DNA of 64,000 nucleotides from a bacterium. GTDB lineage: Bacteria; Hydrothermota; UBA3073; JACQXS01; JAQTXJ01. Location: assembly GCA_028716385.1 (NCBI GenBank), contig JAQUPX010000004.1, forward strand, positions 256,234 to 320,233, given 5' to 3'. A model generated the notes under the pieces. That model searched no databases and was not told the origin of the DNA. It saw only the letters and a program-made list of their open reading frames with translations. Below, piece by piece: positions 17,373 through 62,925 of this stretch. Position 1 is the first letter of the stretch; every line of letters starts with the position of its first letter. The position numbers and the translations under genes are program-made.

Positions 17373-20057
17373 ATGAAAAGAGTCTTTTTATTTTGCATAT
17401 TTTTCTTTTGTGCTTCATATACATTTGCAAATATTTATAAAATCCATATTCCTAATTATGAGCTTTCAAATGGAACATCCCATCTTGGCAGTGATAGCAA
17501 TATTATCCCGCATGATTTTGGAGTAACAATAGAACCGGGGAAGCCTCAATTGCCCTGTAAGTTAGTATGGGTTGCAATACCTCCCGGAAGTGAGGTTGTA
17601 GATTGTAAAATAACGAGAGAGAGTTCGTTATTAAATGTGACTTACTATCCCAGAACTTCAGGAATCTGCCTCAGTCGGATAAAAGAAGAAGAGTTTTACT
17701 CAAGAGAAAAATCAACAAATGACGAGTCTATTTCAAATGATATTTTTCCTAAAAAGCCAGGTGAATACCTTAAGACTATAAGATTTGGTAATTATGACCT
17801 AGCGGAAGTAATAATTTATCCGTATACTTATAATGCGAATACCAATAAGCTTTATTATTCTCCCAATGTTACAATAGAATTTAGTTATGCAAATCACTAT
17901 ACACCTTATGAACCTATGATGGTCGATACAACATTAGACAGTATAATAAAGGACAAAGTAGTTAACTATGATGAGTTGAAAAAATGGTATACAAATGAAA
18001 CAGTTTCGCCTTATGATTATGTAATAATTACGCCTGAAGATTTACTACCTTCGGTTAAATCTTTTGCCGAATGGAAAAAAAGTATTGGATATAAAGTAAA
18101 AATTATCACTGCAACCGGAGATAAGAAGTTAAAATATTTACCTAAATATTTGCTTGTAATTGGTGCCCCTATTACCGTTGGCGCGGAATATCCCATTGAA
18201 AAAATAGAGGGAGTAATTTTAGGAAGGATACCATATACAGATTCTGCTATTGTAACTTCTATCCTTGAGCACATAATAGAATTTGAGCTTGCAGAAGAGC
18301 ATAAGAATATATTATTTGTAGAAGCTGCCACTGCCGGGGACAGAAGCGGTGGTATAAAAAAGAATCTTAAAACTGTACCTTATGAAACAAAAAAGGACTT
18401 ATTAAACCTTCTGAAAGATGTTGTATCTCCGTATTGGAATTATTCTGAATGTAAAAGCGAAGAAATTTTTAATGGTCATTCAATAATTAATTTTTTAAGT
18501 ATTGGTCAGGGGATGCTGGATAATGGGGATGGTATCCCTGAATCTAAAGAAATAAAAACAAGTCCAACGGCTAATTTTAAGATATTTTCTCATACACCAT
18601 TTTTTGTATTTGCGCCTTTTGATGCAAAAAAATTCCTAAAAGAGAATGCAGTTTCTATAGTTTGTCCCGATTCTTTTTCTGAATATATGTATCCGTGGGA
18701 GGATTCACTATCAGGGGGAAGTCAAAGTTTTAATTATATCTTTTTAAAATATTTAACTGACAAAAATACTGTAGGAGAGGCTTTTTTGCAGGCAAAAATA
18801 TGGTATAAGTCGAAATTTCCTCAGGATACGTTAACGACAAGAGAATTTAAAATATTTGGGGACCCGTCACTTAGTTTCAAGAAGTTCCCCGGGATAGATG
18901 TTGGTATAATAAAAACTCCTATTGGACTATTGCCATTAGATACAACTTTTTCTCCTACTTGTCTGGTGAAGAATTTTGGAACAAAATCATTAATGAATTT
19001 TGAGGTTTATTGCACAATAGATTCAAGCGAAAATACTATTTATAATGAGCGTTTATTTATAGATAGTCTTGGAGCTTTTGAACAAAAGATGATTGATTTC
19101 CCCAAATGGATTGTAGACGGTATTGGAGTTAAATATAAGTTTAATTTTGAAGTATTTTTAGCATACGATGAGAACCTAAGTAATGATACTTTCTCAGATT
19201 TTAGTTATGTAAGAAAGGGTGATTTTATAGTTTATGGGGATACCAGCATAAGTAGTATATTGAGGAAATTGAATTGCAAAGGAGCAGAAATCAGTTCTCT
19301 AAATTCTTTCACCGCCGGGGCGGAATGTTCCATTTATCCATATTTATCCGGTTTTAAGTCAATTTTTATTTGTGATACTATTGGACTGGATTCTATTGGA
19401 TATTTGCTACAACCGGGTTATAATATTTATATAGAGGGAAATAATACTTTTTTAAGCAAGTTTCTGGAGGGAAAAACTATTCAAGAGCCTGCATTACGTT
19501 ATATATCAGGGAGTGGAGTTTCATTTATGTCTTCAAAGCAATTGCCAAAAGAATGGTTTGTTCCTTCAAATTGCAGTGCCGTATTTAAAGATACTACAGG
19601 TGTTATTACAGGCTTTTATTATGAAAAAGGTTATAAAATATGGTGCAATAGATTTAAAATTTCAGATATAAATACAGAGTTAGTAAAGATTGAAATACTT
19701 GACTCTATAATGAACACTTTTGGTGTAAAAACCACAATTAAAGGGAAAGAAGCATTGGAACTTTCTAACATTATAGACTTTAAGAGTCAACCGAATCCTT
19801 TTTATAAAAAGACATATATAAAATTTAATGTTCGGAAAACAGAAACAAAAATCAATATTGCTGTTTACGATTTAAGTGGTAAACTTGTTAAAACTGTAAC
19901 AAATAAGAGTTTTAAACCGGGAAAATACGAATTAAGTTGGGATGGGTATAATGAAACAGGGATTTCTGTTAGTAATGGTATTTATTTTATTAAACTATCC
20001 GCCTCAGGCGGAGAAAAGGAAACCTTATTGTTAAAGATCATTATGCTTAAAAATTAA
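17373..20057 (+). CDS. C25 (gingipain)-like secreted protein with T9SS-type tail, probably catalytically inactive
   Basis: 894 residues. Signal peptide 1-19 (ending TFA), then a propeptide-like region with GKPQLPCKLVWVAIPPGSEV. The C25 fold begins at YDYVIITPEDLLPSVKSFAEW and continues with KSIGYKVKIIT and VILGRIPYTDSA, ending with IFGDPSLSF, as in gingipain-type domains. The catalytic segment reads NFLSIGQGML where active members have a GHGS-type histidine, and the following strand (PFFVFAPFDAKKF) lacks the nucleophile cysteine. I infer a pseudoenzyme. A CARDB-like domain follows, then a sorting domain (SNGIYFIKLSASGG). SASGG is encoded by an inserted palindrome at 19998-20012. Confidence 0.82.
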   Translation: MKRVFLFCIFFFCASYTFANIYKIHIPNYELSNGTSHLGSDSNIIPHDFGVTIEPGKPQLPCKLVWVAIPPGSEVVDCKITRESSLLNVTYYPRTSGICLSRIKEEEFYSREKSTNDESISNDIFPKKPGEYLKTIRFGNYDLAEVIIYPYTYNANTNKLYYSPNVTIEFSYANHYTPYEPMMVDTTLDSIIKDKVVNYDELKKWYTNETVSPYDYVIITPEDLLPSVKSFAEWKKSIGYKVKIITATGDKKLKYLPKYLLVIGAPITVGAEYPIEKIEGVILGRIPYTDSAIVTSILEHIIEFELAEEHKNILFVEAATAGDRSGGIKKNLKTVPYETKKDLLNLLKDVVSPYWNYSECKSEEIFNGHSIINFLSIGQGMLDNGDGIPESKEIKTSPTANFKIFSHTPFFVFAPFDAKKFLKENAVSIVCPDSFSEYMYPWEDSLSGGSQSFNYIFLKYLTDKNTVGEAFLQAKIWYKSKFPQDTLTTREFKIFGDPSLSFKKFPGIDVGIIKTPIGLLPLDTTFSPTCLVKNFGTKSLMNFEVYCTIDSSENTIYNERLFIDSLGAFEQKMIDFPKWIVDGIGVKYKFNFEVFLAYDENLSNDTFSDFSYVRKGDFIVYGDTSISSILRKLNCKGAEISSLNSFTAGAECSIYPYLSGFKSIFICDTIGLDSIGYLLQPGYNIYIEGNNTFLSKFLEGKTIQEPALRYISGSGVSFMSSKQLPKEWFVPSNCSAVFKDTTGVITGFYYEKGYKIWCNRFKISDINTELVKIEILDSIMNTFGVKTTIKGKEALELSNIIDFKSQPNPFYKKTYIKFNVRKTETKINIAVYDLSGKLVKTVTNKSFKPGKYELSWDGYNETGISVSNGIYFIKLSASGGEKETLLLKIIMLKN
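17470..17495 (+). repeat. Possible degenerate in-frame family E repeat in the C25-like gene
   Basis: ATGGAACATCCC at 17470 is followed by a degraded TCTTGGCAGTGAT, close to the unit found in the kinase gene (33489-33613) and the TldE-like gene (38041). It encodes NGTSHLGSD, comparable to GTSRLGGD and GTPRLGGD there. The match is weaker than the others. Confidence 0.4.
19998..20012 (+). repeat. In-frame 15-base palindrome (family C) in the C25-like gene
   Basis: TCCGCC-TCA-GGCGGA, a perfect palindrome with a three-base centre. It encodes SASGG within the sorting tail, where sister proteins read straight from KFSAG or KLQAG into the final strand. The same 15-mer occurs at 44684-44698 upstream of hutU. 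Confidence 0.65.
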
Positions 20058-20092: not shown

Positions 20093-20170
20093 GACTCAAG
20101 GGCTTCTTATCCGACAGATTGGATAGGAATCCCTAATCGTCCGCTTGATGCGGACTCAAGGGCTTCTTAT
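20093..20170 (+). repeat. Family A palindromic repeat, between the C25-like and MBL genes
   Basis: GACTCAAGGGCTTCTTAT occurs twice (20093-20110 and 20153-20170). The second closes a hairpin with GGATAGGAATCCCT and an inner TCCGC/GCGGA stem. The second copy ends on the ATG of the MBL hydrolase and supplies its only Shine-Dalgarno-like sequence (AAGGG). Confidence 0.75.
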
Positions 20171-20990
20171 GGAATTGGGGAAATTTAATTTAACAATTTT
20201 ATGTGAAGGAACGTTTTTAGTAGATGGTGGGGCTATGTTTGGAGTAGTCCCAAAGGTTTTATGGAATAAATATAATTCATCGGATGAATTGAATAGGATA
20301 GAATTATCTCTTAATTGTCTTTTAATACAGACAGGAGATAAGAATATACTTATAGATACAGGGATTGGAGATAAAGTAGGAGATAAGTTAAAAAAAATAT
20401 ATGGGATAAACCGTAAAGATGATTGGTTACTCGAGAAAATAAAACCGGAAGATATAGACATTGTAATAAATACTCACTTGCACTTTGACCATTGTGGGGG
20501 CAATACTTGTATGAAAGATGGTATTTTATTTCCTACATTTAAGAATGCTAAATATTTTATACAAAAAGGTGAGTGGGAAGAAGCAATGGAACCGAATGAA
20601 CGTGCCAAAGGAAGTTATTTAAAGGAAAACTTATTGCCGATTAAGGAATGTAATTTGCTTAATTTAATAGAGGGGGATACAGAAATTTGTCCGGGAGTAA
20701 AGACGTTAGTTACGGGTGGACACACTGCATATCATCAAGCTGTTTTTATAGAATCGGATGGGAATAAAGCAATTTATCTTGGAGATTTTATTCCTACGGT
20801 TTCTTTTTTAAACAAGTCATACGCATCAGCTTATGATTTATATCCTTTAGAAATAATGAACAATAAAAAGGAAATTTTACAAAAAGCATTTGAGGAACAC
20901 TGGTTGTTGATTTTTGACCACGATACTAAAGTTGCTATGGGGTATTTGGATAAAAAAGAAGAGAAGTTTATTATCCAACAGACCGGATAA
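20169..20990 (+). CDS. MBL-fold metallohydrolase
   Basis: 273 residues from ATG 20169; upstream TTG and ATG codons at 20145-20150 lie inside a repeat and would add repeat-encoded residues. The metallo-beta-lactamase fold is shown by NTHLHFDHCGGN (HxHxDH), GHTAYHQ (third metal histidine), YLGDFIP (bridging aspartate) and IFDHDTKVA (last histidine), so both metal sites are complete. The layout resembles lactonase and glyoxalase-like enzymes, but the substrate is not predictable. Its ribosome-binding sequence and its stop codon (inside GGATAAG) both lie in family A repeats, so repeats frame the gene on both sides. Confidence 0.88.
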   Translation: MELGKFNLTILCEGTFLVDGGAMFGVVPKVLWNKYNSSDELNRIELSLNCLLIQTGDKNILIDTGIGDKVGDKLKKIYGINRKDDWLLEKIKPEDIDIVINTHLHFDHCGGNTCMKDGILFPTFKNAKYFIQKGEWEEAMEPNERAKGSYLKENLLPIKECNLLNLIEGDTEICPGVKTLVTGGHTAYHQAVFIESDGNKAIYLGDFIPTVSFLNKSYASAYDLYPLEIMNNKKEILQKAFEEHWLLIFDHDTKVAMGYLDKKEEKFIIQQTG

Positions 20991-21048
20991 GAATCTCTAA
21001 TCCGCCAGAGGCGGAAAGAGCTTCCTATCCAACGGATCGGATAAGAAT
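20977..21048 (+). repeat. Family A palindromic repeat, about two tandem units
   Basis: Runs CCGGATAAGAATCTCTAATCC, the palindrome TCCGCCAGAGGCGGA, AAGAGCTTCCTATCC, then a second GGATAAGAATCTCT. It provides the TAA stop of the MBL gene at 20988-20990 and joins directly to the family B repeat. Confidence 0.75.
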
Positions 21049-21165
21049 CTCTCCGGTAAAAGATTCCGGACAATCCCGTCAAGGCGGGATGTCGCTAATG
21101 TTCAACAATCTTTTTTCTAGTTAACATACGGGCTTTTAAGTAATCCCGCCATGGCGGGAAGGGCT
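21049..21165 (+). repeat. Family B dispersed repeat, copy 2
   Basis: Aligns from end to end with 12996-13115: CTCTCCGGTAAAAGA, TTCCGGACAATCC, AAGGCGGGAT, CAACAATCTTTT, AAGTAATCCCGCC. It includes the palindrome TCCCGCCATGGCGGGA. It occupies the gap between the MBL and GT4 genes. Confidence 0.75.
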
Positions 21166-26804: not shown

Positions 26805-28106
26805 ATGCAAGTGAGAACATTTTTAGGGGGAGTGCGTCCTTATAGCAAAAAAATTACACAAAACAATACTATTGAAATAATGCCTATTCCTAAAATGGTT
26901 ATTATTCCTTTACTTCAGCACACGGGAATGCCTTCCCAACCTATCGTTGAAGTAAAAACAAAAGTAAAAGCCGGGACAAGAATAGGGGAAATTGATGGTA
27001 GGATATCGTCTAATATACATTCGAGTATTGCAGGAATAGTAAGAAGCATTGAACCCTGTTTTTCTTCTTCGGGGGCGAAGGTTCTTTCCGTAACGATAGA
27101 ATCGGACGGGACAGATGAAATGGAATTATATCCTGATGAAGCAGTTTCTCCCGCTGAAATTATAAAACGGGTGGAGGCTGCGGGTATTGTGGGAATGGGT
27201 GGAGGAGCTTCACCAACATATATAAAATTAACTCTACCCAAAGATAAATCGGTAAATACTATAATCTTAAACGGATGTGAGTCGGAACCATATTTAACGG
27301 TAGATTCTAGGTTGATAATGGAAAAGACAAGAGAAATATTCGAAGGGGCTAAGCTTATAATGAGTGTTGTTGGTGCAAAAAAGTGTTGTATCGGGATAGG
27401 AAATAATAAGATTCAAAATTTATGGCAAATTAAGGCAATTGCGAAGGAGTTTGGTTTTTATGTTCATATATTAAGAACAAAATATCCTCAGGGGGAAGAG
27501 AAACAACTGATATCAGTTATTACGGGTAGAAAAGTGCCATCGGGGGGCTTGCCTTGTGACGTTGGAGTTTCGGTGTATAATATAGGGACTGTTTATGCGA
27601 TATATGAAGCTTGTAAATTGCGGAAACCTTTAATAGAAAGAGTAGTAACCGTTACAGGCAGGGTAAAACAACCTAAAAACGTTAAAGTAAGAATAGGGAC
27701 ATTATTTAAAGATGTGATTGAGTTTTGTGGAGGGTATAGTGATATCCCGGCCAAAATTATAATGGGTGGTCCAATGATGGGAATTGCCCAGGCGGATGAT
27801 AATGTGTCTGTGATAAAAGCAACATCGGGGATTCTTGTGCAAAACAGGCAGGATATTTCTTTATATGAGGAATATACCTGTATAAGGTGTGGAGCTTGTG
27901 TTTCTGTCTGTCCGATGGGATTAATTCCATCAAAGCTTGGCAATTATGTTGAAAAAAATAAGTTTGACGAAGCAAGAAAACTTTGTATAATGGACTGTAT
28001 GGAATGCGGTAGTTGTGCGTATATATGTCCATCAAAAAGGAATTTAGTGCATTTAATAAAGTATGGTAAAATTAAGGTGAAGTCCGAACCGGATAAGAAT
28101 CCCTAA
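26805..28106 (+). CDS. rnfC: RnfC/RsxC-type electron transport complex subunit
   Basis: 433 residues. The N-terminal Gly-rich domain has FLGGVRPYSKKIT, then a biotinyl/barrel-sandwich-like segment (VKAGTRIGEIDG). The nucleotide and flavin-binding region is GMGGGASPTYIKL and NGCESEPYLTVDSRLIMEK. The SLBB region is PSGGLPCDVGVSVYNIGT and the C-terminus has two 4Fe-4S motifs, CIRCGACVSVCP and CMECGSCAYICP. RnfC is the NADH-oxidising, membrane-associated subunit of the ion-pumping Rnf complex (ferredoxin:NAD+ oxidoreductase). No rnfA, B, D, E or G is adjacent, which is unusual. Its last residues (EPDKNP) and its stop are encoded by a family A repeat at 28091. Confidence 0.92.
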   Translation: MQVRTFLGGVRPYSKKITQNNTIEIMPIPKMVIIPLLQHTGMPSQPIVEVKTKVKAGTRIGEIDGRISSNIHSSIAGIVRSIEPCFSSSGAKVLSVTIESDGTDEMELYPDEAVSPAEIIKRVEAAGIVGMGGGASPTYIKLTLPKDKSVNTIILNGCESEPYLTVDSRLIMEKTREIFEGAKLIMSVVGAKKCCIGIGNNKIQNLWQIKAIAKEFGFYVHILRTKYPQGEEKQLISVITGRKVPSGGLPCDVGVSVYNIGTVYAIYEACKLRKPLIERVVTVTGRVKQPKNVKVRIGTLFKDVIEFCGGYSDIPAKIIMGGPMMGIAQADDNVSVIKATSGILVQNRQDISLYEEYTCIRCGACVSVCPMGLIPSKLGNYVEKNKFDEARKLCIMDCMECGSCAYICPSKRNLVHLIKYGKIKVKSEPDKNP

Positions 28107-28158
28107 TCGTCCGCCTGAAGCGGGCTCAAGGGCTTCTTATCAAAAGATAAGAAACCCC
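28091..28158 (+). repeat. Family A palindromic repeat ending rnfC
   Basis: GGATAAGAATCCCTAATCG, inner stem TCCGC..GCGGG, CTCAAGGGCTTCTTATC, then a partial second unit GATAAGAAACCCCTA. The TAA of rnfC (28104-28106) lies within GAATCCCTAA, so the repeat has replaced or trimmed the original 3' end. Confidence 0.75.
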
Positions 28159-32599: not shown

Positions 32600-33718
32600 C
32601 TAAGAAACAGGCAGCGAATTTATTATTTCTTTTAGTTTTGGAAATTCAGTGGTTTCGGAAAGTGCCTTTTTCAGGTAGTTAACCCCGGGTGGGATATATT
32701 GAAGGAATGAAGTTTTACCTTTTACAAGAGAGAGGAAAGCAAATGCGCCGAGCGCCTGCATATTTCGTTGAAGCCCTGTGTAAATAAAAATTTGTTTAAA
32801 TTGTTCTTTGTTGATATTTACTTTCCATATATCTATCAGGGAATTAATGTAATAATTTATAAGTTCTTCTCTTATGGTATCTTCCAATACTATGTAAGGG
32901 TCTTTCAGTAAGGAGGCTATATCATAAGCAAGCAAGCCCTGTCTTGCTCCCTGAAAGTCTACAATATATACCCTATTTTGTTTCAAGAAGATATTTTTAG
33001 ATTGAAAGTCTCTATGCATAAAATAAAATGGTTCATTTACAAGGCGCATTGCCAGATTATGGAATTCTGTCTGTAAAAGTTGGTTGTTTTCGATATTGTT
33101 TATTCCGCCTGAGGCAGATTCCATCACCGCCGCAGCGGGATGTTCCATTTTACAATACTTTCCAAGAAAATATTGAGTAAAATATTGAGTTTCCCATCTA
33201 AAAGTATTGTAATCAAACTTACGGGTAATTATAGGGGCGCAGTGTGAACTTTTTTCTAATCCCATTATTTGCATATTCAGAAGCGTGTCAATGACCTGTT
33301 TATAAGTTTCCAGAACGGGATAATTATATTTTTTTATAGCAAGTTCAAGACTTAAGTCGCCTATATCTTCTGCGAGCAGAAAATGTTCTTTTTTATCAGA
33401 GTAATAAATTTCAGGAACTGCTGTTTTTGTTTTTTTAAGGACAGATGCAATTGCAATATAATTTTCAAATTCCTGATCCCCGGGAGTATCGCCACCAAGA
33501 CGGGGTGTTCCATCTATTAAAAGTATAATAGATTTCCCCCCGCTAAGACCACTAAGGGCTACGCCCAAAGGCTTTCTACTGTCTTCTTTCGCCGCCGTAG
33601 CGGGATGTTCCATAATCCTATAAAATTCCCGAGTCGAGCCCCCTTCTGTCAGTTGTTGTATGGCAAAGTTATCATGGAAACCAAGATTTCGAATAGCTTT
33701 TCTTATTATAGCGTTCAT
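32600..33718 (-). CDS. Aminoglycoside phosphotransferase-family kinase, probable AmgK (amino-sugar kinase), carrying three in-frame repeat insertions
   Basis: 372 residues. STREFYRI starts the glycine-rich N-lobe, AEDIGDLSL is the hinge, FMHRDFQSKNIFL the catalytic loop (Asp237) and IVDFQGARQGLLAYDIASLL the metal-binding DFG-equivalent. These match AmgK, which phosphorylates N-acetylmuramate/GlcNAc at C1 in cell-wall recycling. The nucleotidyltransferase gene 16 bases upstream would be MurU, the next enzyme. Three segments do not fit the fold: EHPATAAKEDSRKPLG..LSGG, GTPRLGGDT and EHPAAAVMESASGG. Each coincides with a palindromic repeat in the DNA (33541-33613, 33489-33513, 33104-33148). The reading frame stays open and catalytic residues are intact, so the protein may still work. 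Confidence 0.75.
   Translation of the reverse strand: MNAIIRKAIRNLGFHDNFAIQQLTEGGSTREFYRIMEHPATAAKEDSRKPLGVALSGLSGGKSIILLIDGTPRLGGDTPGDQEFENYIAIASVLKKTKTAVPEIYYSDKKEHFLLAEDIGDLSLELAIKKYNYPVLETYKQVIDTLLNMQIMGLEKSSHCAPIITRKFDYNTFRWETQYFTQYFLGKYCKMEHPAAAVMESASGGINNIENNQLLQTEFHNLAMRLVNEPFYFMHRDFQSKNIFLKQNRVYIVDFQGARQGLLAYDIASLLKDPYIVLEDTIREELINYYINSLIDIWKVNINKEQFKQIFIYTGLQRNMQALGAFAFLSLVKGKTSFLQYIPPGVNYLKKALSETTEFPKLKEIINSLPVS
33104..33148 (-). repeat. In-frame palindromic repeats (families C and E) inside the AmgK-like gene
   Basis: Coding strand reads ATGGAACATCCCGC, GGCGGTGATGG and then TCTGCCTCAGGCGGA, encoding MEHPAAAVMESASGG. The insertion lies between the helix ending FLGKYCK and LLQTEFHNL. 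Confidence 0.7.
33489..33513 (-). repeat. In-frame family E repeat inside the AmgK-like gene, read in the alternative frame
   Basis: Coding strand ATGGAACACCCCG then TCTTGGTGGCGAT encodes DGTPRLGGD. The same unit at 33104 and 33590 is read one base later, as EHPA. The base sequence is shared while the peptide differs. Confidence 0.65.
33541..33613 (-). repeat. In-frame composite palindromic repeat inside the AmgK-like gene
   Basis: Coding strand begins ATGGAACATCCCGCTACGGC and ends CTTAGCGGGG, with an inner hairpin GGGC-GTA-GCCC and outer arms CCCGCTA/TAGCGGG. About 24 codons are inserted between YRI and GKSIILLID, in the loop after the first N-lobe strand. Confidence 0.7.
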
Positions 33719-33734
33719 TTAGGAGTATTATTTA

Positions 33735-34649
33735 CTACTCAAGCTGGAAGCTTGAGTTACTAAAGAATATTCTATTTTTATCTTTTGTATTATTAGCGAT
33801 TGTAATATTATCCCATACAATACAATTTTCTAAAACCACATTATTTCCGATTGTGCAATTTTGTCCTATAGAAACAAAGCCATTTAATATGGTAGTTTTA
33901 GGTATATTAGAACCTTTTCCGATATGAATATTGGTAGAGGGTAGGGGAATAGATAGATTAATTCCGTTTAAAACTATAGATTTATGGGTTTCAAGGTAAC
34001 TTTCCGGTGTTCCTATGTCTGACCAGAAATGATTTTGGGTAATATAGCCCTTTATAGCGTTAAGGTTGATTAATTTATTATAAGCAGGTATAATATCGGC
34101 AGGTCCCTTATTATCCGGCAAAAAATCAAGTATTTTGTTTGACATAATTGAAATTCCTGTAAATGCAAGAGATTTTGGATTATTTTGGTCATTAACGCTT
34201 AAAATGTTATTTGCGGATAAAGTTACTTTATTGAATGTTTTATAGTCGTGTAATATAAGTGTAATTATAGCGTTTTCTCTTTTATGGAATTCAATTGCGG
34301 GCTGAAGGTTTATATTGCTTAATATATCGCCATTATGGACTATAAATATGTCTTCGGAATGTAAAAATTCTTTTATATTTCCAATTCCGCCTGCGATACC
34401 AAGTATTTGAGATTCGTAGGAAAAATTAAAAGTCGCGTTGAATTTAGCGCTTGATAGTATATAATTCTTTATTTTATCTGCCAGATGGTGGGTATTTATA
34501 CAAAACTCAGATATATTCAACGATTTTAGATGAAAAACAATGTTATCAATAATAGGTTGTCCAAATATAGGGAATAGGGGTTTGGGAAGGTAATTTGTTA
34601 GTGGCATTACCCTTTTCCCATAGCCTGCGCAAAGTATAACTGCCTTCAT
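33735..34649 (-). CDS. Sugar-1-phosphate nucleotidyltransferase, probable MurU
   Basis: 304 residues. KAVILCAGYGKRVMPLT is the Gx2GxGxR-type nucleotide-binding loop, followed by PKPLFPIFGQPII (Lys of the active site), HNGDIL (metal Asp) and WSDIGTPESYLETH, the usual end of the catalytic domain. The last 80 residues contain hexapeptide repeats (IGKGSNIPKTTILNGFVSIG, IGNNVVLENCIVW), a short left-handed beta helix. The neighbouring downstream kinase suggests MurU: transfer of UMP to MurNAc-1-phosphate or GlcNAc-1-phosphate in peptidoglycan recycling. A mannose-1-phosphate guanylyltransferase is the main alternative, given the GT4 and GH130 genes nearby. Its final codons and stop overlap a palindrome at 33737-33757. 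Confidence 0.75.
   Translation of the reverse strand: MKAVILCAGYGKRVMPLTNYLPKPLFPIFGQPIIDNIVFHLKSLNISEFCINTHHLADKIKNYILSSAKFNATFNFSYESQILGIAGGIGNIKEFLHSEDIFIVHNGDILSNINLQPAIEFHKRENAIITLILHDYKTFNKVTLSANNILSVNDQNNPKSLAFTGISIMSNKILDFLPDNKGPADIIPAYNKLINLNAIKGYITQNHFWSDIGTPESYLETHKSIVLNGINLSIPLPSTNIHIGKGSNIPKTTILNGFVSIGQNCTIGNNVVLENCIVWDNITIANNTKDKNRIFFSNSSFQLE
33737..33757 (-). repeat. 21-base palindrome at the 3' end of the MurU-like gene
   Basis: ACTCAAGCT-GGA-AGCTTGAGT: 9-base perfect arms with a three-base centre. It encodes the last residues (SSFQLE) and overlaps the TAG stop, so it looks like a repeat that ended up at the C-terminus. It could also form a weak hairpin between the two genes. 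Confidence 0.6.
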
Positions 34650-36341: not shown

Positions 36342-38129
36342 TTATTTTTTACCGGAGAAATAAGGATGAGGCAATACCGGGAGTGTAACCGGTCTGGTTT
36401 CTTGATTAGTAATGTCTATTTCATCTACTATGATAGATGGAGTTATTACAGAGACAGGTAATTCTCGCATAAATTTATCTCTTATAATTAAGTTACAAAC
36501 ATTTTCTTCAGAGGATGCCCCGATAATATTTTTCAAGACTTTAGGTGTAATTTCCTTGAGTCTAATATTTCTTAGAGGTTCTGTATGTCCATCCGTATAG
36601 AGTTTATAAGCATATAAAGGTTCCGGCAACAAAGACTTTGATCCTTGTTCTTGAAAGGAAGATAAGAAAGAGAGCATCATTTCTTCTTTTTCCATAGTCA
36701 TTGAACTTGTAAACCTAGATATTACAATTCCGTAATCAAGTTTTTTCTCTTTGCACAGATTAATGAGTTTTTCTTTTATTTTTTCCTGTTTATCCGTGCT
36801 TTCGACAAATAGATTAGCGCAACTCGCCTTAGTTTTATCTCCTGTAATAGCGCGTCCATGTCCATTAGATTTTGTTCCTTCTTTAGTTGGGGTGCGGCTT
36901 ATTAATAAATTTTTTAACACTCCATCTTTTACAATTTCTACCCGTTGGGATTTAACACCTTCATCATCTATCGGGAAGCTCCCGATTAAGGGGATACTAT
37001 TTTTTTCTGTAATAGTTGGGTCATCATATACAGAAAAAGAGGCCGGCAATATTGTTTGGTTGATTTTATCCGTTAAGAAACCGTTTTCTTCCGGCAAGAA
37101 TTGAGCAAACATCTGGTTTTCATAAATAGGTGTTCTTGAGGTAGAAACGCCTTTTCCCAGGAGGTAGAAAAAGAATTCACCAACTGCCTGATCCGTGAAT
37201 AAAACGGGTCCGCTATATTTAATTTCTTTTTGTATATCGGTTTCAAGGGACAAGTTTTTTGCCATTTCTTCCACACTTGCCGTGATGGTTTTAAAATCCG
37301 GTAGATTTTCAGGTGTGCGGCCATAAAATCCAATGAGGTCTTTTACCGGGTCACCATTTTTAGCTTGAGTTTTAGCAATAATTTCAAGGCTTGTAATAAG
37401 GTTCCCATTAGTATTTTTGCTACCTTCAGAATCAATAAAATACTGATTTTCCTGTCCTGTAGAAAAATTTATCCTCGATGTTTGAATTTTAGGGAATTTT
37501 TTGAAAACCTCGGACAATTCTTTTAAGTATTTTACCCATTCTTCTTCATTGACGGATAATTTCGTTTCTTGTCCTTCATAAACGGTAGGGGTTACTTTAG
37601 AAAAGTCATCAGGGATATCCGTAATTACCTGATTTTTCATTGCCGATTTTTTTTGAGCTAAAATATCTAATGCTTCTTTGTATTGTTCGTCTGTTCCCAA
37701 CCATAAGCTATTTTGTAGCGCATCATAATTATCGTCCATAGGTCCTGTGCTATACCCACTCATACCACTAAACATTCCCATTCCTCTTTCGGAAATAAAG
37801 TTAGTATTATCTAATTTATAGTTTCCGACTCTCATAGTAATAATAAGGTTTCTAGCTTTATCATGAGTTGTGGAAATGAGTCCGCCGAAATCAGTTTTTA
37901 TTGTTAACCAGTTTTGATCATGTACCAAGTATGCTACATAATAAGGAGCGGGGTTATCTTTCATTTTCAGTTTTCCCGTAGTTCTTTTGAGCTCGGCGTT
38001 CATTGCTTTAAATACTACACTTTTCTCAAACGTGTTTCCGTCGCCGCCTAAGCGGGATGTTCCAGATGTTCCATATATATTGGCGGTAGCAAGAAACATA
38101 ATACATATAAGATATATTTTTTTTAGCAT
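36342..38129 (-). CDS. Exported TldD/PmbA-family protein lacking the metal motif (TldE-like)
   Basis: 595 residues. A signal peptide is visible (KKIYLICIMFLATANIYG). The body matches the modulator-of-DNA-gyrase family: a C-terminal barrel with IDDEGVKSQRVEIVKDGVLKN, LLISRTPTKEG and a final SPSIIVDEIDI-like strand (ITPSIIVDEIDITN). The helix that carries HExxxH in TldD reads QAVGEFFFYLLGKG here, so it is the non-catalytic TldE type. TldD and TldE form a heterodimeric peptidase that degrades unfolded or modified peptides. The catalytic partner is the adjacent gene (16-base gap). AGGAGGA precedes the ATG. Just after the signal peptide an inserted repeat encodes GTSGTSRLGGDG. Export of the pair is unusual for this largely cytosolic family. 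Confidence 0.85.
   Translation of the reverse strand: MLKKIYLICIMFLATANIYGTSGTSRLGGDGNTFEKSVVFKAMNAELKRTTGKLKMKDNPAPYYVAYLVHDQNWLTIKTDFGGLISTTHDKARNLIITMRVGNYKLDNTNFISERGMGMFSGMSGYSTGPMDDNYDALQNSLWLGTDEQYKEALDILAQKKSAMKNQVITDIPDDFSKVTPTVYEGQETKLSVNEEEWVKYLKELSEVFKKFPKIQTSRINFSTGQENQYFIDSEGSKNTNGNLITSLEIIAKTQAKNGDPVKDLIGFYGRTPENLPDFKTITASVEEMAKNLSLETDIQKEIKYSGPVLFTDQAVGEFFFYLLGKGVSTSRTPIYENQMFAQFLPEENGFLTDKINQTILPASFSVYDDPTITEKNSIPLIGSFPIDDEGVKSQRVEIVKDGVLKNLLISRTPTKEGTKSNGHGRAITGDKTKASCANLFVESTDKQEKIKEKLINLCKEKKLDYGIVISRFTSSMTMEKEEMMLSFLSSFQEQGSKSLLPEPLYAYKLYTDGHTEPLRNIRLKEITPKVLKNIIGASSEENVCNLIIRDKFMRELPVSVITPSIIVDEIDITNQETRPVTLPVLPHPYFSGKK
38041..38074 (-). repeat. In-frame family E repeat after the signal peptide of the TldE-like gene
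   Basis: Coding strand GGAACATCTGGAACATCCCG then CTTAGGCGGCGACGG encodes GTSGTSRLGGDG. The unit matches those in the AmgK-like gene, in the frame used at 33489, and the GGAACATC start is itself duplicated. Confidence 0.65.
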
Positions 38130-38145
38130 TTTTCCTCCTGTTAGT

Positions 38146-39858
38146 TTATTTTTTTTCTAAAGGAGCAGGTAGAATTGGTGGTTTTTCCTGTCCTTTCTCC
38201 TTTTTTTCAACTTCAATTTCAGAAACTAATATTGATGGAGAAACGCAAGATACAGGGACGCTCCCTGATTCTGCTCCACAATAGCCGTTAAAAACGGCAT
38301 AGTCATCAGCTGTAGCTAAGATATTAGAGAAAGAAGCGAGAGGAGTTCCAACAATATCTACGCCTCTCACAATTTCGTCCGGTTTTCCATCTGCATAGAC
38401 TCTCCATACTAAGAGAGGGATTACTTTAAAAGCCTGGACGAAACTTCTCTGTGTAATTGTAAATCCTCCGGAGATATCTTCAAAAACTAAGCCATAGGGT
38501 TTATTTTGTTTTTTACATTCCTGGATTAACATTTCTCTTAATTTAGCAAACGGGACAGTATTTTTTGATTCGACCATTAAATTTCCCTGTCTTGCGACAA
38601 CTTTATATCCATGTTCTCGTCGTCCGTGACCATTAGAGCGGGAGAAGTTTTCAACAGGGGAACGAGACATCAGGAAATTTTTAAGTATTCCATTTTCGAC
38701 AACGGGTACTTTTTCAGCAAGGATTCCTTCGTCATCATATAAGTAATATCCATTTAATTCTTCATTCCCAAATTTTTTCTGGGTAGGATTATCGTAAACG
38801 GAAATAAAATCAGGAAGTATTTTTTCGCCTACTTTTTTTGTAAAAGTTTGTCCTTCTTTTTCACTTTTTTGACGATGTCCTTCTATTCTATGACCAAATA
38901 TTTCGTGAAAGAAGACAGCGCTTGCGTAATTTTTTAGAATTGCGGGACCTGTATAAGGTTCAACAATAGGCGCATCTCTGAGCGCTTTAAGGTTTTGAAT
39001 AAGAGAATCAATTGTTTGGATAATTTTATTTTCGTCAGGGAGATCTTCTATTTTTTTAGAATAAAAAGGCTTATAAAGGTAGAGTTTCATCCCATCGTTT
39101 GCCGTAGTTCCGACATAAACGCCTAACAGGTAAGAGACATTCCCATTTTTTATTTTGGTGCCTTCGCTGTTGACCAGATACTTATTTGTAGCGGTGGCAT
39201 TTAAGGAAATACTTGAATAATAAATCCATGGGTATTTTTTAACATAAGAGGATGTTTTTCGTAAAAGTTCATATGATGAAGCCGGGACAGAATCTAATTT
39301 TGCGGTTTGTCCTGTAAACGCATAAGGCTTAGCAGAAGAAAAATCAGGAGATGTATCCGTTTCGGTAACTTTTACTGTTTTTTCAGAAGTTACTTTTATA
39401 AATTGTTCCTGTGCTTTTTTGAAATTTTTATCGGTTTCAGTCCATAATGATGCCCGAAGAGATGTTGGGTCATCTTCAATTGTAACGGATTTTTCCGATG
39501 GCATCAAAGATGCGAACGAAAACATATTATCTCCACGAAGTTCGTGAGTATTGTCTAATTTTGAAGAACCTACCCGCGTATCTACGGTAAGATAACGATT
39601 ATTATTTTTTGAATCGTCTTCAATCGCGCCATAGGAAGCGGTTATTCTAATAGTATTTAAGTCTGTAATTGTATATTGTAAAAAATATATAGCAGGCTTA
39701 TTTACCGATTTCAAAACCTTAAAAGAACGATTTAACTCTGTTTCCATTGTAGAGAGCACAATGTCTTTTTGAGTCTGAGCAAAGCCCTTAAAGGGTAACA
39801 TAAGCAGGAAAGTAGAAAGACAGAGTGCAATTACTCTGCATTGCAAGAATTTGAACAT
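38146..39858 (-). CDS. Exported TldD-family zinc peptidase
   Basis: 570 residues from the ATG at 39858, chosen because AAGGAGGT lies five bases upstream; a longer start at 39888 would precede that site. Signal peptide 1-28 ends GFAQ. The zinc site is FFHEIFGHRIEGH (HExxxH, His318 and His323), with the third ligand expected in the C-terminal barrel (NGYCGAESGSVPVSCVSPSI). GLVFEDISGGFT and GIVEN-like VVENGILKNFLMSRSPV are further family motifs. It should be the catalytic half of a TldD/TldE peptidase acting in the periplasm. The TldE-like partner follows after 16 bases and the DUF6263 lipoprotein gene precedes it, so the three probably form one operon. Confidence 0.9.
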   Translation of the reverse strand: MFKFLQCRVIALCLSTFLLMLPFKGFAQTQKDIVLSTMETELNRSFKVLKSVNKPAIYFLQYTITDLNTIRITASYGAIEDDSKNNNRYLTVDTRVGSSKLDNTHELRGDNMFSFASLMPSEKSVTIEDDPTSLRASLWTETDKNFKKAQEQFIKVTSEKTVKVTETDTSPDFSSAKPYAFTGQTAKLDSVPASSYELLRKTSSYVKKYPWIYYSSISLNATATNKYLVNSEGTKIKNGNVSYLLGVYVGTTANDGMKLYLYKPFYSKKIEDLPDENKIIQTIDSLIQNLKALRDAPIVEPYTGPAILKNYASAVFFHEIFGHRIEGHRQKSEKEGQTFTKKVGEKILPDFISVYDNPTQKKFGNEELNGYYLYDDEGILAEKVPVVENGILKNFLMSRSPVENFSRSNGHGRREHGYKVVARQGNLMVESKNTVPFAKLREMLIQECKKQNKPYGLVFEDISGGFTITQRSFVQAFKVIPLLVWRVYADGKPDEIVRGVDIVGTPLASFSNILATADDYAVFNGYCGAESGSVPVSCVSPSILVSEIEVEKKEKGQEKPPILPAPLEKK

Positions 39859-39897
39859 TCTATACCTCCTTGTAAAAATAAGTTTCAAATTTTTTTG

Positions 39898-61185: not shown

Positions 61186-62925
61186 ATGAAAATAAAAAAG
61201 TTATCTCCGAAAACTTGGAAAAAACTTGAAAGAATAGGTATAATAATAGGAATAGTAATGGGAATAATAGGTGGATGGGAACGGATAAAAACGCTAACAC
61301 AACCTACGATCAAAGAGCAAATGCAAGAAGAGATAAGTGGAACGTTACTAATACAAGATTCACTTTACGCTAGAGTATTTCAGTATGTGCCAAAAGATGA
61401 ATTTGAATTTAAACTAATTATTCAAAAAGCAGATTCGGAATTTGAGAATAATAAGTTTAGAGAGGCAGAATTATCATATAAAAAAGCTTATACCGTTGTG
61501 GAAAATTCTAAAAAGAAAGAACTAATTGGAATGGCACTTTTCGGGATAGGTATAGCTAACGCAAGTCAGAAAAATTATATAGAAGCTATAGAAAAATTCA
61601 GAGAAAGTTTAAAATATATAAAAGATAAAAAAATATTTGTAGCTAAAATATATTATAGTTTAGGATTTTGTTACGAAGAATTAAAAATAAATAAAAAAGC
61701 GATAAGAAATTATGATAAAGCTATCTGTATTAACCCTAATTATGCAAACGCTTTTGGTAGTCGTGGGTTTGCTTATTATAAAGAAGGGAATTCAGAGAAG
61801 GCAATACAGGATTGTGACAAAGCTATTAGTATCAATCCTAATCTTGCAGCAGCTTTTAATAATCGTGGGCTTGCATATTATAAAAGAAGAGAATTAGGCA
61901 AGGCAATACGGGACTATGACAAAGCCATTAGTATTGACTCTAATTATGCAATAGTTTTTAATAATCGTGGACTTGCTTATAATGATAAAGGAGAGTTTGA
62001 CAAGGCAATACAGGATTGTGACAAAGCTATTAGTATCAATCCTAACCTTGTATATGCTTTTAGCAATCGCGGACTTGCTTATAATAATAAAGGAGAATTT
62101 GACAAGGCAATACAGAATTGTGACAAAGCTATCAGTATTAATCCTAATCTTGCAATAGTTTTTAGTAATCGTGGGTTCGCGTATACTAAGAAAAGAGAGT
62201 TTGATAAGGCAATGCATGATTACAACAAAGCCCTTAGTCTTAACCCTAATCTTGCAGAAGCTTTTGGTGGTCGTGGAAATGCTTATGATGAAAAAGGAGA
62301 GTTAGATAAGGCAATACGGGATTATGACAGAGCCATTAGTCTTAATCCTAATTATGCTGCAGAAGTTTTTAATAATCGTGGATCTATTTATGGTAAAAAA
62401 GGAGAGTTGGATGAGGCAATACGGGATTATAACAGAGCCATTAGTCTTAATCCTAATTTTGCAGAAGTTTTTAATAATCGTGGATTTCTTTATGCTAAAA
62501 GAGGAGATTTAGATAAGGCAATACAGGATTATGATAAAGCTATTAGTATCAATCCTAATTTTGCAGACGTTTTTCATAATCGTGGCGATGTTTATATTAA
62601 TAAAGGAGAGTTTGGCAAGGCAATACAGGATTATGATAAAGCTATTAGTATTAACTCTAATGATTCATATGCTTTTAATAATCGTGGGTTTGCTTATATT
62701 GGAAAAGGAGATTTAGATAAGGCAATACAGGATTATGACAAAGCTATTAAAATTAATCCAAATTTTGCAGTAGCAATGAAAAATATGGGAATGGCATATA
62801 AACTCAAAGGCGATAAAAAGAGAGCCAAGTTCTGGTTAAATAAGGCACTGAAAAAGAAAGAGTTTTTACCAGATAAAGCAGCAGAAGAAGAAATTAAGAA
62901 ATGGCTGAAGAGTATTGAAAGCTAA
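61186..62925 (+). CDS. Membrane-anchored TPR array protein (about 14 repeats)
   Basis: 579 residues. One hydrophobic segment at about 20-35 (IGIIIGIVMGIIGGWERI) anchors it near the N-terminus. Two divergent TPRs at about 75-160 are followed by about 12 near-identical 34-residue TPRs (AFNNRGLAYYKRRELGKAIRD type, each with DKAISINPN). One repeat has an extra residue (NYAAEVFNNRG). The C-terminal cap AMKNMGMAYKLKGDKKRAKF matches the upstream gene, so the two are paralogues with different repeat numbers. At DNA level repeats 204 bases apart are almost identical (61801 and 62005), suggesting repeat expansion by recombination. Function unknown; probably a scaffold. Confidence 0.8.
   Translation: MKIKKLSPKTWKKLERIGIIIGIVMGIIGGWERIKTLTQPTIKEQMQEEISGTLLIQDSLYARVFQYVPKDEFEFKLIIQKADSEFENNKFREAELSYKKAYTVVENSKKKELIGMALFGIGIANASQKNYIEAIEKFRESLKYIKDKKIFVAKIYYSLGFCYEELKINKKAIRNYDKAICINPNYANAFGSRGFAYYKEGNSEKAIQDCDKAISINPNLAAAFNNRGLAYYKRRELGKAIRDYDKAISIDSNYAIVFNNRGLAYNDKGEFDKAIQDCDKAISINPNLVYAFSNRGLAYNNKGEFDKAIQNCDKAISINPNLAIVFSNRGFAYTKKREFDKAMHDYNKALSLNPNLAEAFGGRGNAYDEKGELDKAIRDYDRAISLNPNYAAEVFNNRGSIYGKKGELDEAIRDYNRAISLNPNFAEVFNNRGFLYAKRGDLDKAIQDYDKAISINPNFADVFHNRGDVYINKGEFGKAIQDYDKAISINSNDSYAFNNRGFAYIGKGDLDKAIQDYDKAIKINPNFAVAMKNMGMAYKLKGDKKRAKFWLNKALKKKEFLPDKAAEEEIKKWLKSIES

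Follow-up and report, generated by a model that had tools for sequence, protein, structure and literature searches.

The window, the whole 64,000-nt stretch of DNA analysed here, carries an ORF for a sugar kinase that holds three copies of a short palindromic repeat (Table 1) and is adjoined by an NTP-transferase/hexapeptide ORF (33735-34649). The Pfam match of the kinase, PF01636, is to APH. Its score against the NCBIfam AmgK model NF045759 (103.7 bits) is far under the cut-off of 550 bits, and because this equivalog cut-off is missed the enzyme is called AmgK-like here and is not assigned as AmgK. The catalytic motifs are undamaged (HRD from residue 235, DFQG from residue 254), and the gene is still under purifying selection, with dN 0.073, dS 0.447 and dN/dS ~0.16 relative to the sister genome G001, of the same genus (NG86).

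Within the kinase, GGAACATCCCGC lies on the minus strand inside copies 1 and 3, and the near-identical TGGAACACCCCG inside copy 2; the ORF reads them as EHPA (from residues 37 and 192) and GTPR (from residue 70), respectively. These readings, together with GTSR in a TldE-like gene, had been given in the original prediction, and all are confirmed, as are the intact HRD and DFQG motifs and the claim that three copies of one unit are read in two frames. Two of the copies are intact and one is decayed. An AlphaFold2 model of the kinase, built on an alignment of our own sequence and that of the sister only, had a mean pLDDT of 34.8 and was left unused; alignment gaps suggest that the inserted segments lie in loops.

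Table 1. Copies of the 24-nt element and associated features in the window.
Feature	Position	Strand	Remarks
AmgK-like sugar kinase ORF, 372 aa	32600..33718	-	hosts three element copies; PF01636, E = 5.8e-10
Element copy 1, 24 nt, 0 mismatches	33589..33612	-	read EHPATAA; missing in sister
GC-rich unique segment of 42 nt after copy 1	33536..33577	-	multiple of 3; non-repeat; missing in sister
Element copy 2, decayed, 3 mismatches	33489..33512	-	read GTPRLGGD; sister has a diverged version, +18 nt
Element copy 3, 24 nt, 0 mismatches	33124..33147	-	read EHPAAAV; sister has a copy too
Second palindrome TCTGCCTCAGGCGGA, shortly after copy 3	33104..33118	-	related to the scattered TCCGCCTCAGGCGGA unit; sister sequence differs
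Element copy in TldE-like gene, 0 mismatches	38041..38064	-	read GTSRLGGD; host ORF 36342-38129
Extra 9-nt unit TGGAACATC ahead of TldE copy	38065..38073	-	reads GTS; joint reading GTSGTSRLGGD
Element copy, 1 mismatch	19309..19332	-	within an 897-codon stop-to-stop frame of the + strand; antisense, FTAGAECSI; sister sequence ambiguous
Decayed element copy, 3 mismatches	17471..17494	+	GTSHLGSD in the 897-codon frame that also holds 19309..19332

The repeat unit is 24 nt long, TGGAACATCCCGCYNNGGCGGYGA, and forms an imperfect palindrome in which a 5' arm (TGGAAC) is followed by a hairpin, ATCCCGCYNNGGCGGYGA(T), exact sites having been printed with their flanks. At up to 3 mismatches the 24-mer occurs at 79 places in the genome that contains the window (G000; 3.27 Mb, 25 contigs), 45 in G001 and 6 in G005, a genome of the same order; none were found in G002, G007 or G008, and the reversed control gave 0 in all six genomes. 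Exact GGAACATCCCGC is present 31 times in G000 (reversed control, 0), and the exact 13-mer TGGAACATCCCGC 29 times in G000, 22 times in G001 and 7 times in G005, with none in G002, G003, G004, G006, G007 or G008. Allowing for up to 2 mismatches, TGGAACATCCCGC is matched 7 times in the window itself, and one of these matches (57203) is not a full copy; the shuffle mean was 0.60 and 0 of 100 shuffles reached 7. Shuffles and reversed-pattern controls thus exclude chance for the repeat.

Among the genomes searched, the multi-copy family is limited to the genus and one further genome of the order. An exact-pattern search of genome_contigs, from which our own genome was possibly left out, returned 21 stretches, 10 from JAQTXJ, 5 from JACQXS and 6 from unrelated genomes; the last are single matches that we treated as chance, and a wide taxonomic spread was rejected. 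Phage carriage was rejected too, as viral_contigs had 0 stretches with a 23-nt pattern. Across the 42 close copies (≤1 mismatch), stem positions are mostly near-invariant and the two central bases free, and the base ahead of them is a pyrimidine (C or T) in 40. Either strand is predicted to fold into an imperfect hairpin, with modest isolated-hairpin energies (z -0.9 to -2.5). With its dispersed copies the unit belongs to the short interspersed palindromic repeats (REP/SDR/RPE class, in the broad sense); its copies form a genuine family of intragenic palindromic elements 24 nt long, akin to REP, RPE and SDR.

The element is about as frequent in long ORFs as random sequence. Counting stop-to-stop frames of at least 150 aa as ORFs, 31 of the 42 close copies lie in ORFs, compared to 1605 of 2000 random 24-mers drawn from the copy-bearing stretches (p = 0.33); in the looser set (≤3 mismatches) the share is slightly low (55/78, p = 0.045). 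The 31 ORF copies are read in sense phase 1 (EHPAxAV, 14), sense phase 2 (GTSRxGGD, 8), antisense phase 1 (ITAKAGCS, 8) and antisense phase 0 (1). Of the six frames of the 24-mer, five stay open in 34-42 of the 42 copies; the one that bears a TGA is open in 8. The five mostly open frames are not used evenly (14, 8, 8, 1, 0; p = 0.0003, a value that paralogues inflate), and there is a bias towards the sense strand (22/31, p = 0.03). At 5 copies the TGA frame has at least 60 open codons upstream; 3 of these frames stop at the TGA, including two of at least 100 codons (638, in L012, and 144), and 2 have lost the stop. Of the 36 copies recovered in G001, ORFs of at least 150 aa contain 25, in six phases. 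Frames were assigned by a longest-open-frame rule, which alone cannot show selection and which misassigns at least one G001 copy (L125), where the phase differs from that of the G000 orthologue. The original prediction that DNA is kept while the peptide varies proved true genome-wide, over the four phases of the 31 ORF copies: DNA rather than peptide is conserved. The picture is that of an element which would land widely and then be filtered by what proteins tolerate.

The sister genome allows the inserts to be read directly. DNA around the kinase is 83-84% identical in G001, where the site of copy 1 is empty, GGATT being joined directly to AAAGAAAAC; with the 42-nt segment, 66 nt are missing in all. 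Insert 1 thereby exceeds the repeat, in that the 24-nt element is followed by 11 nt alignable with the sister and then by the 42 nt. This tail had been taken for part of the repeat insertion; as a second repeat family it was rejected, its 20-nt core matching only itself in G000 and having 0 matches in G001 at up to 3 mismatches. Copy 3 is common to the sister and therefore older. The kinase alignment comprised our own locus and 10 homologue loci (17 of 60 genomes matched, the weaker ones being left unaligned), and 9 more distant homologues are without all three segments. Segment 2 partly aligns with ordinary family residues (IDGTPRLGGDTPGDQEF vs. MDWSPEEGGDTQPF of 3csv), so that the refuting outcome named in the original prediction is partly borne out for this one segment; it is still marked as a decayed copy on account of its match to the 24-mer and the altered version in the sister.

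Across the two genomes, 19 places were aligned, a non-random sample in which MurE, EtfA, citrate synthase and RpiB were picked as recognisable genes; further hits between the two, such as one-sided matches for L029 and for the window copy at 17471 and matches to paralogues, stayed outside this set. The 19 places comprise 7 coding pairs with presence in one genome and absence in the other, 1 such non-coding case (L009, of ambiguous length, 22-24 nt), 9 filled in both genomes, with or without changes (kinase copies 2 and 3, L024, L032b, L150, L166, two in L181, and L139), 1 ambiguous (window 19309) and 1 unalignable (L015). Six of the coding pairs are filled in G000 (kinase copy 1, RpiB, MurE, EtfA, citrate synthase and the L032 ORF) and one, LeuS, is filled in G001 and empty in G000. 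The difference is net 24 nt in every pair, and the protein-level gap is 8 residues each in RpiB, MurE, EtfA, citrate synthase, the L032 ORF and LeuS. Outgroups were aligned for four genes and are without the insert in EtfA and MurE (G002, G005), citrate synthase (G002) and RpiB (7 genomes); LeuS and the L032 ORF were compared between G000 and G001 only. Since further homologues are without them, the inserts in the kinase, EtfA, MurE, citrate synthase and RpiB are gains. Filled and empty orthologous sites, the criterion of mobility, are therefore present in 7 coding pairs among the 19 aligned places, and a unit of net 24 nt has been inserted into intact-looking genes since the two congeneric species parted.

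The MurE and EtfA junctions carry substitutions, and at these two sites exactness holds for net length only. In the empty-site alignments, junction ambiguity is at most 1-2 nt (A or AT), with no discernible target-site duplication longer than this; an A/AT repeat fits several junctions, citrate synthase and EtfA do not conform, and we claim none. Nor did the analysis turn up an enzyme that would move the element. As regards MITE features, the junction ambiguity of at most 1-2 nt is the relevant observation, and a parent element was sought among Y1 transposases only. In RpiB (L010), four codons separate the start from the insert, which brings an in-frame ATG of its own, so that translation could restart inside the element.

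Some copies carry additional modules. A 9-nt unit like TGGAACATC stands ahead of 11 of 78 copies, a 15-nt unit like CCGCYNNGGCGG follows 6 of 78, and the loop of one G000 copy holds 21 nt that are missing in the sister. Extra modules of 9, 15, 18, 21 and 42 nt were met, and the coding changes met were multiples of 3, as noticed without a systematic survey. The second palindrome, TCCGCCTCAGGCGGA, is scattered through the copy-bearing stretches, one following kinase copy 3, and some element copies sit within larger composite palindromes. Flanking stems of at least 7 bp accompany 11 of 78 copies, compared to a permuted mean of 0.99. Nine of these 11 belong to three composite families (with ACCCCGC, ATTCCTG and GTCAGACA arms), 7 of the 9 being looser matches, and for this reason we do not claim that insertion generally favours hairpin loops.

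The three kinase segments are very probably insertions of a short, dispersed, mobile-like imperfect palindrome of 24 nt, and the kinase, as part of this best explanation, would be a bystander hit three times. The element would spread as DNA, most likely via its hairpin, by single-strand or template-switch insertion or with the help of some enzyme, and may land almost indifferently inside and outside genes. The survival of genic copies would follow from a length divisible by 3, from the openness of five of the six frames in most copies and from sites that tolerate eight extra residues; afterwards, copies may decay or acquire the extra modules listed above. A bolder reading, offered tentatively and in our judgement doubtful, sees a codon-sized mobile element, a 24-nt hairpin without a transposase of its own that would act as a fixed 8-codon cassette and enter long ORFs and core enzymes at about the chance rate, so that the genome samples 8-residue loops, and further modules would land in the hairpin loops of older copies. 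Modules in the loops of older copies were observed twice, at L139/L249 and, in the sister, at kinase copy 2.

Several other explanations bear on the same evidence. A Y1 transposase (RAYT, IS200/IS605-like) that mobilises the unit in trans as a REP, as is proposed for REPINs in PMC3116915, is unlikely, although the size and imperfect-palindrome shape of the unit fit the REPs of 20-40 bp described in PMC3733652. Y1 matches do exist in G000 (2) and G005 (4), and at one of the G000 loci (L086) the second palindrome TCCGCCTCAGGCGGA lies inside a repeat adjoining the gene. However, G001 has its 45 copies and no Y1 match at E ≤ 0.001 (in a 92% complete assembly), G002 has 6 Y1 matches and zero element copies, and four motif searches found no 24-mer core at either G000 Y1 locus (~1.5 kb on each side); these three observations disfavour the Y1/RAYT route. 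The consensus TGGAACATCCCGCYNNGGCGGYGA and the flanks of the 42 copies also have no GTAG or CGTC tag. An association with RAYT (Y1) genes of the kind known for GTAG REPs and REPINs was not found in these incomplete assemblies.

We consider it quite improbable that the repeat is a functional DNA signal kept by selection and tolerated in genes, such as an uptake sequence, a recombination hotspot or a nucleoid-protein site. Strong conservation of the 5' arm and stem around a free two-base loop, and copies on both strands and in genes, would suit such a signal. The usual view of uptake-type signals, however, is that point changes turn sequence already present into the signal, while here 24 nt appear at once in otherwise alignable genes, and 8 of the 19 aligned places are filled in one congener only.

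Selection of the eight residues as a peptide tag or regulatory loop is already largely refuted and very improbable. The uneven use of the five mostly open frames, with its paralogue-inflated p value, speaks for it, but one DNA sequence yields at least three unrelated peptides, the host proteins are unrelated and 23 of 78 copies lie outside ORFs of at least 150 aa. The original prediction had ruled out peptide selection as the explanation of the repeat; it is indeed excluded as the cause and, frame use being uneven, may still act as a filter. Equally hard to credit is a removal of the 24 nt, either ahead of translation or in the course of it, as a mini-intron or through ribosome bypassing, that leaves the protein unaltered. 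The hairpin shape resembles mitochondrial bypassed elements, and some insertion places are sensitive (e.g., the RpiB start, four codons past the ATG); removal would free both length and frame, yet all 7 coding cases are net 24 nt and only two frames of at least 100 codons end at the TGA of the element. An assembly or binning artefact or a dying pseudogene can be set aside almost entirely, for although the sister genomes are metagenome-assembled, one family with orthologous shared sites in two distinct congeneric genomes refutes the artefact in the main, and the dN/dS of ~0.16 and intact motifs of the kinase stand against the pseudogene.

Insertion of a mobile-like 24-nt palindrome, our preferred reading, has parallels among known repeats. 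Rickettsia palindromic elements (RPEs) were reportedly the subject of Ogata et al. in 2000. In PMC2229807, PMC3767692 and PMC10969869, RPEs appear as palindromic, selfish-looking repeats of ~100-150 bp with a conserved peptide, in frame within conserved protein genes; an RPE-bearing Gmk is reported in PMC2229807 to be translated and active, and according to the R. japonica paper (PMC3767692) every rickettsial orthologue carries an inserted sequence at one and the same locus. The 24-mer is like RPEs in its in-frame insertion in conserved genes (kinase, RpiB, MurE, EtfA, citrate synthase and LeuS) and unlike them in being a 24-nt unit that yields unrelated peptides and has empty sites in congeners. 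Dispersed imperfect palindromes of 20-40 bp tagged with GTAG or CGTC, including RPE-4, RPE-6 and the intragenic REPs of O. terrae, are treated in PMC3733652, which describes REPs as mostly intergenic and some of them as lying inside ORFs, DNA-repair genes included. The present unit shares with tagged REPs the form of a short dispersed imperfect palindrome partly inside ORFs; it differs in having no terminal tag, in a long-ORF share near random and in that no RAYT link was found.

Cyanobacterial SDRs are very small mobile repeat modules (Elhai et al. 2008, as cited in PMC4390886), and SDR5 is said there to insert precisely between two nucleotides of HIP1; the 24-mer is alike in its very small size and differs in sequence and host. 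Yeast mitochondrial GC clusters, which PMC4478555 describes as short GC-rich palindromes that propagate, merge and shuffle (the cluster studied there being 42 nt), are a fair analogy; they are mitochondrial, and no homology is implied. No description of a 24-nt family of this kind was met in the titles and abstract starts searched, which is no proof of its absence from print, and in a search naming Stahlbacteria and WOR-3 the word 'Stahlbacteria' was absent among the matches listed.

Intragenic palindromic repeats are thus a kind already known; the 24-nt family is new, unusually small, recent and cleanly traceable, and is valuable for its empty sites. The family bears on how the smallest bacterial repeats (REP, SDR, RPE) move and why genes tolerate them. 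An inserted unit is best defined where the empty site is known, and two congeners let the unit, its junctions and its fate be read directly. For annotation, the 8-residue insertions in MurE, EtfA, LeuS and others here stem from repeat DNA and should not be read as conserved features of the protein. They also make well-studied enzymes available as natural loop-insertion variants.

Further repeats and gene arrangements were observed around the copies. By eye, the C2 Y1 genes of G000 (L083, L086) are flanked by repeats of their own (GGCGAAGCTAAAGCTTCGC..., GCAGGTTAAAACCTGC...), which bear no relation to the 24-mer, and at L086 one flanking repeat is interrupted by TCCGCCTCAGGCGGA. The TldE-like and TldD-like neighbours (window 36342-39888) are an adjacent PmbA/TldD-family pair; in a 20-kb search of the sister, the TldD-like gene had a 68% match elsewhere and the TldE-like gene had no full match. 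Secreted-protein-like ORFs (L020, L027, L028, L029, L011, L019; L022, L145, L177) have similar C-terminal tails in which the element's position and frame vary, though the positions are close to one another (NEYGTSR..., YTNMEHPA..., NIITAKAGCSIG), which suggests that one domain was hit repeatedly or that the element was copied along with the domain. A family of larger multi-copy palindromic repeats (GGATAAGAATCCCTAATCGTCCGCC...) occupies window 20965-21160 and also 20121-20170 and 28091-28140; the first of these regions matches many places in the sister, mostly short, at 78-94% identity. Diverged repeat arrays lie at window 60477-62861 and 56995-57878, with periods of ~102 and ~150 nt.
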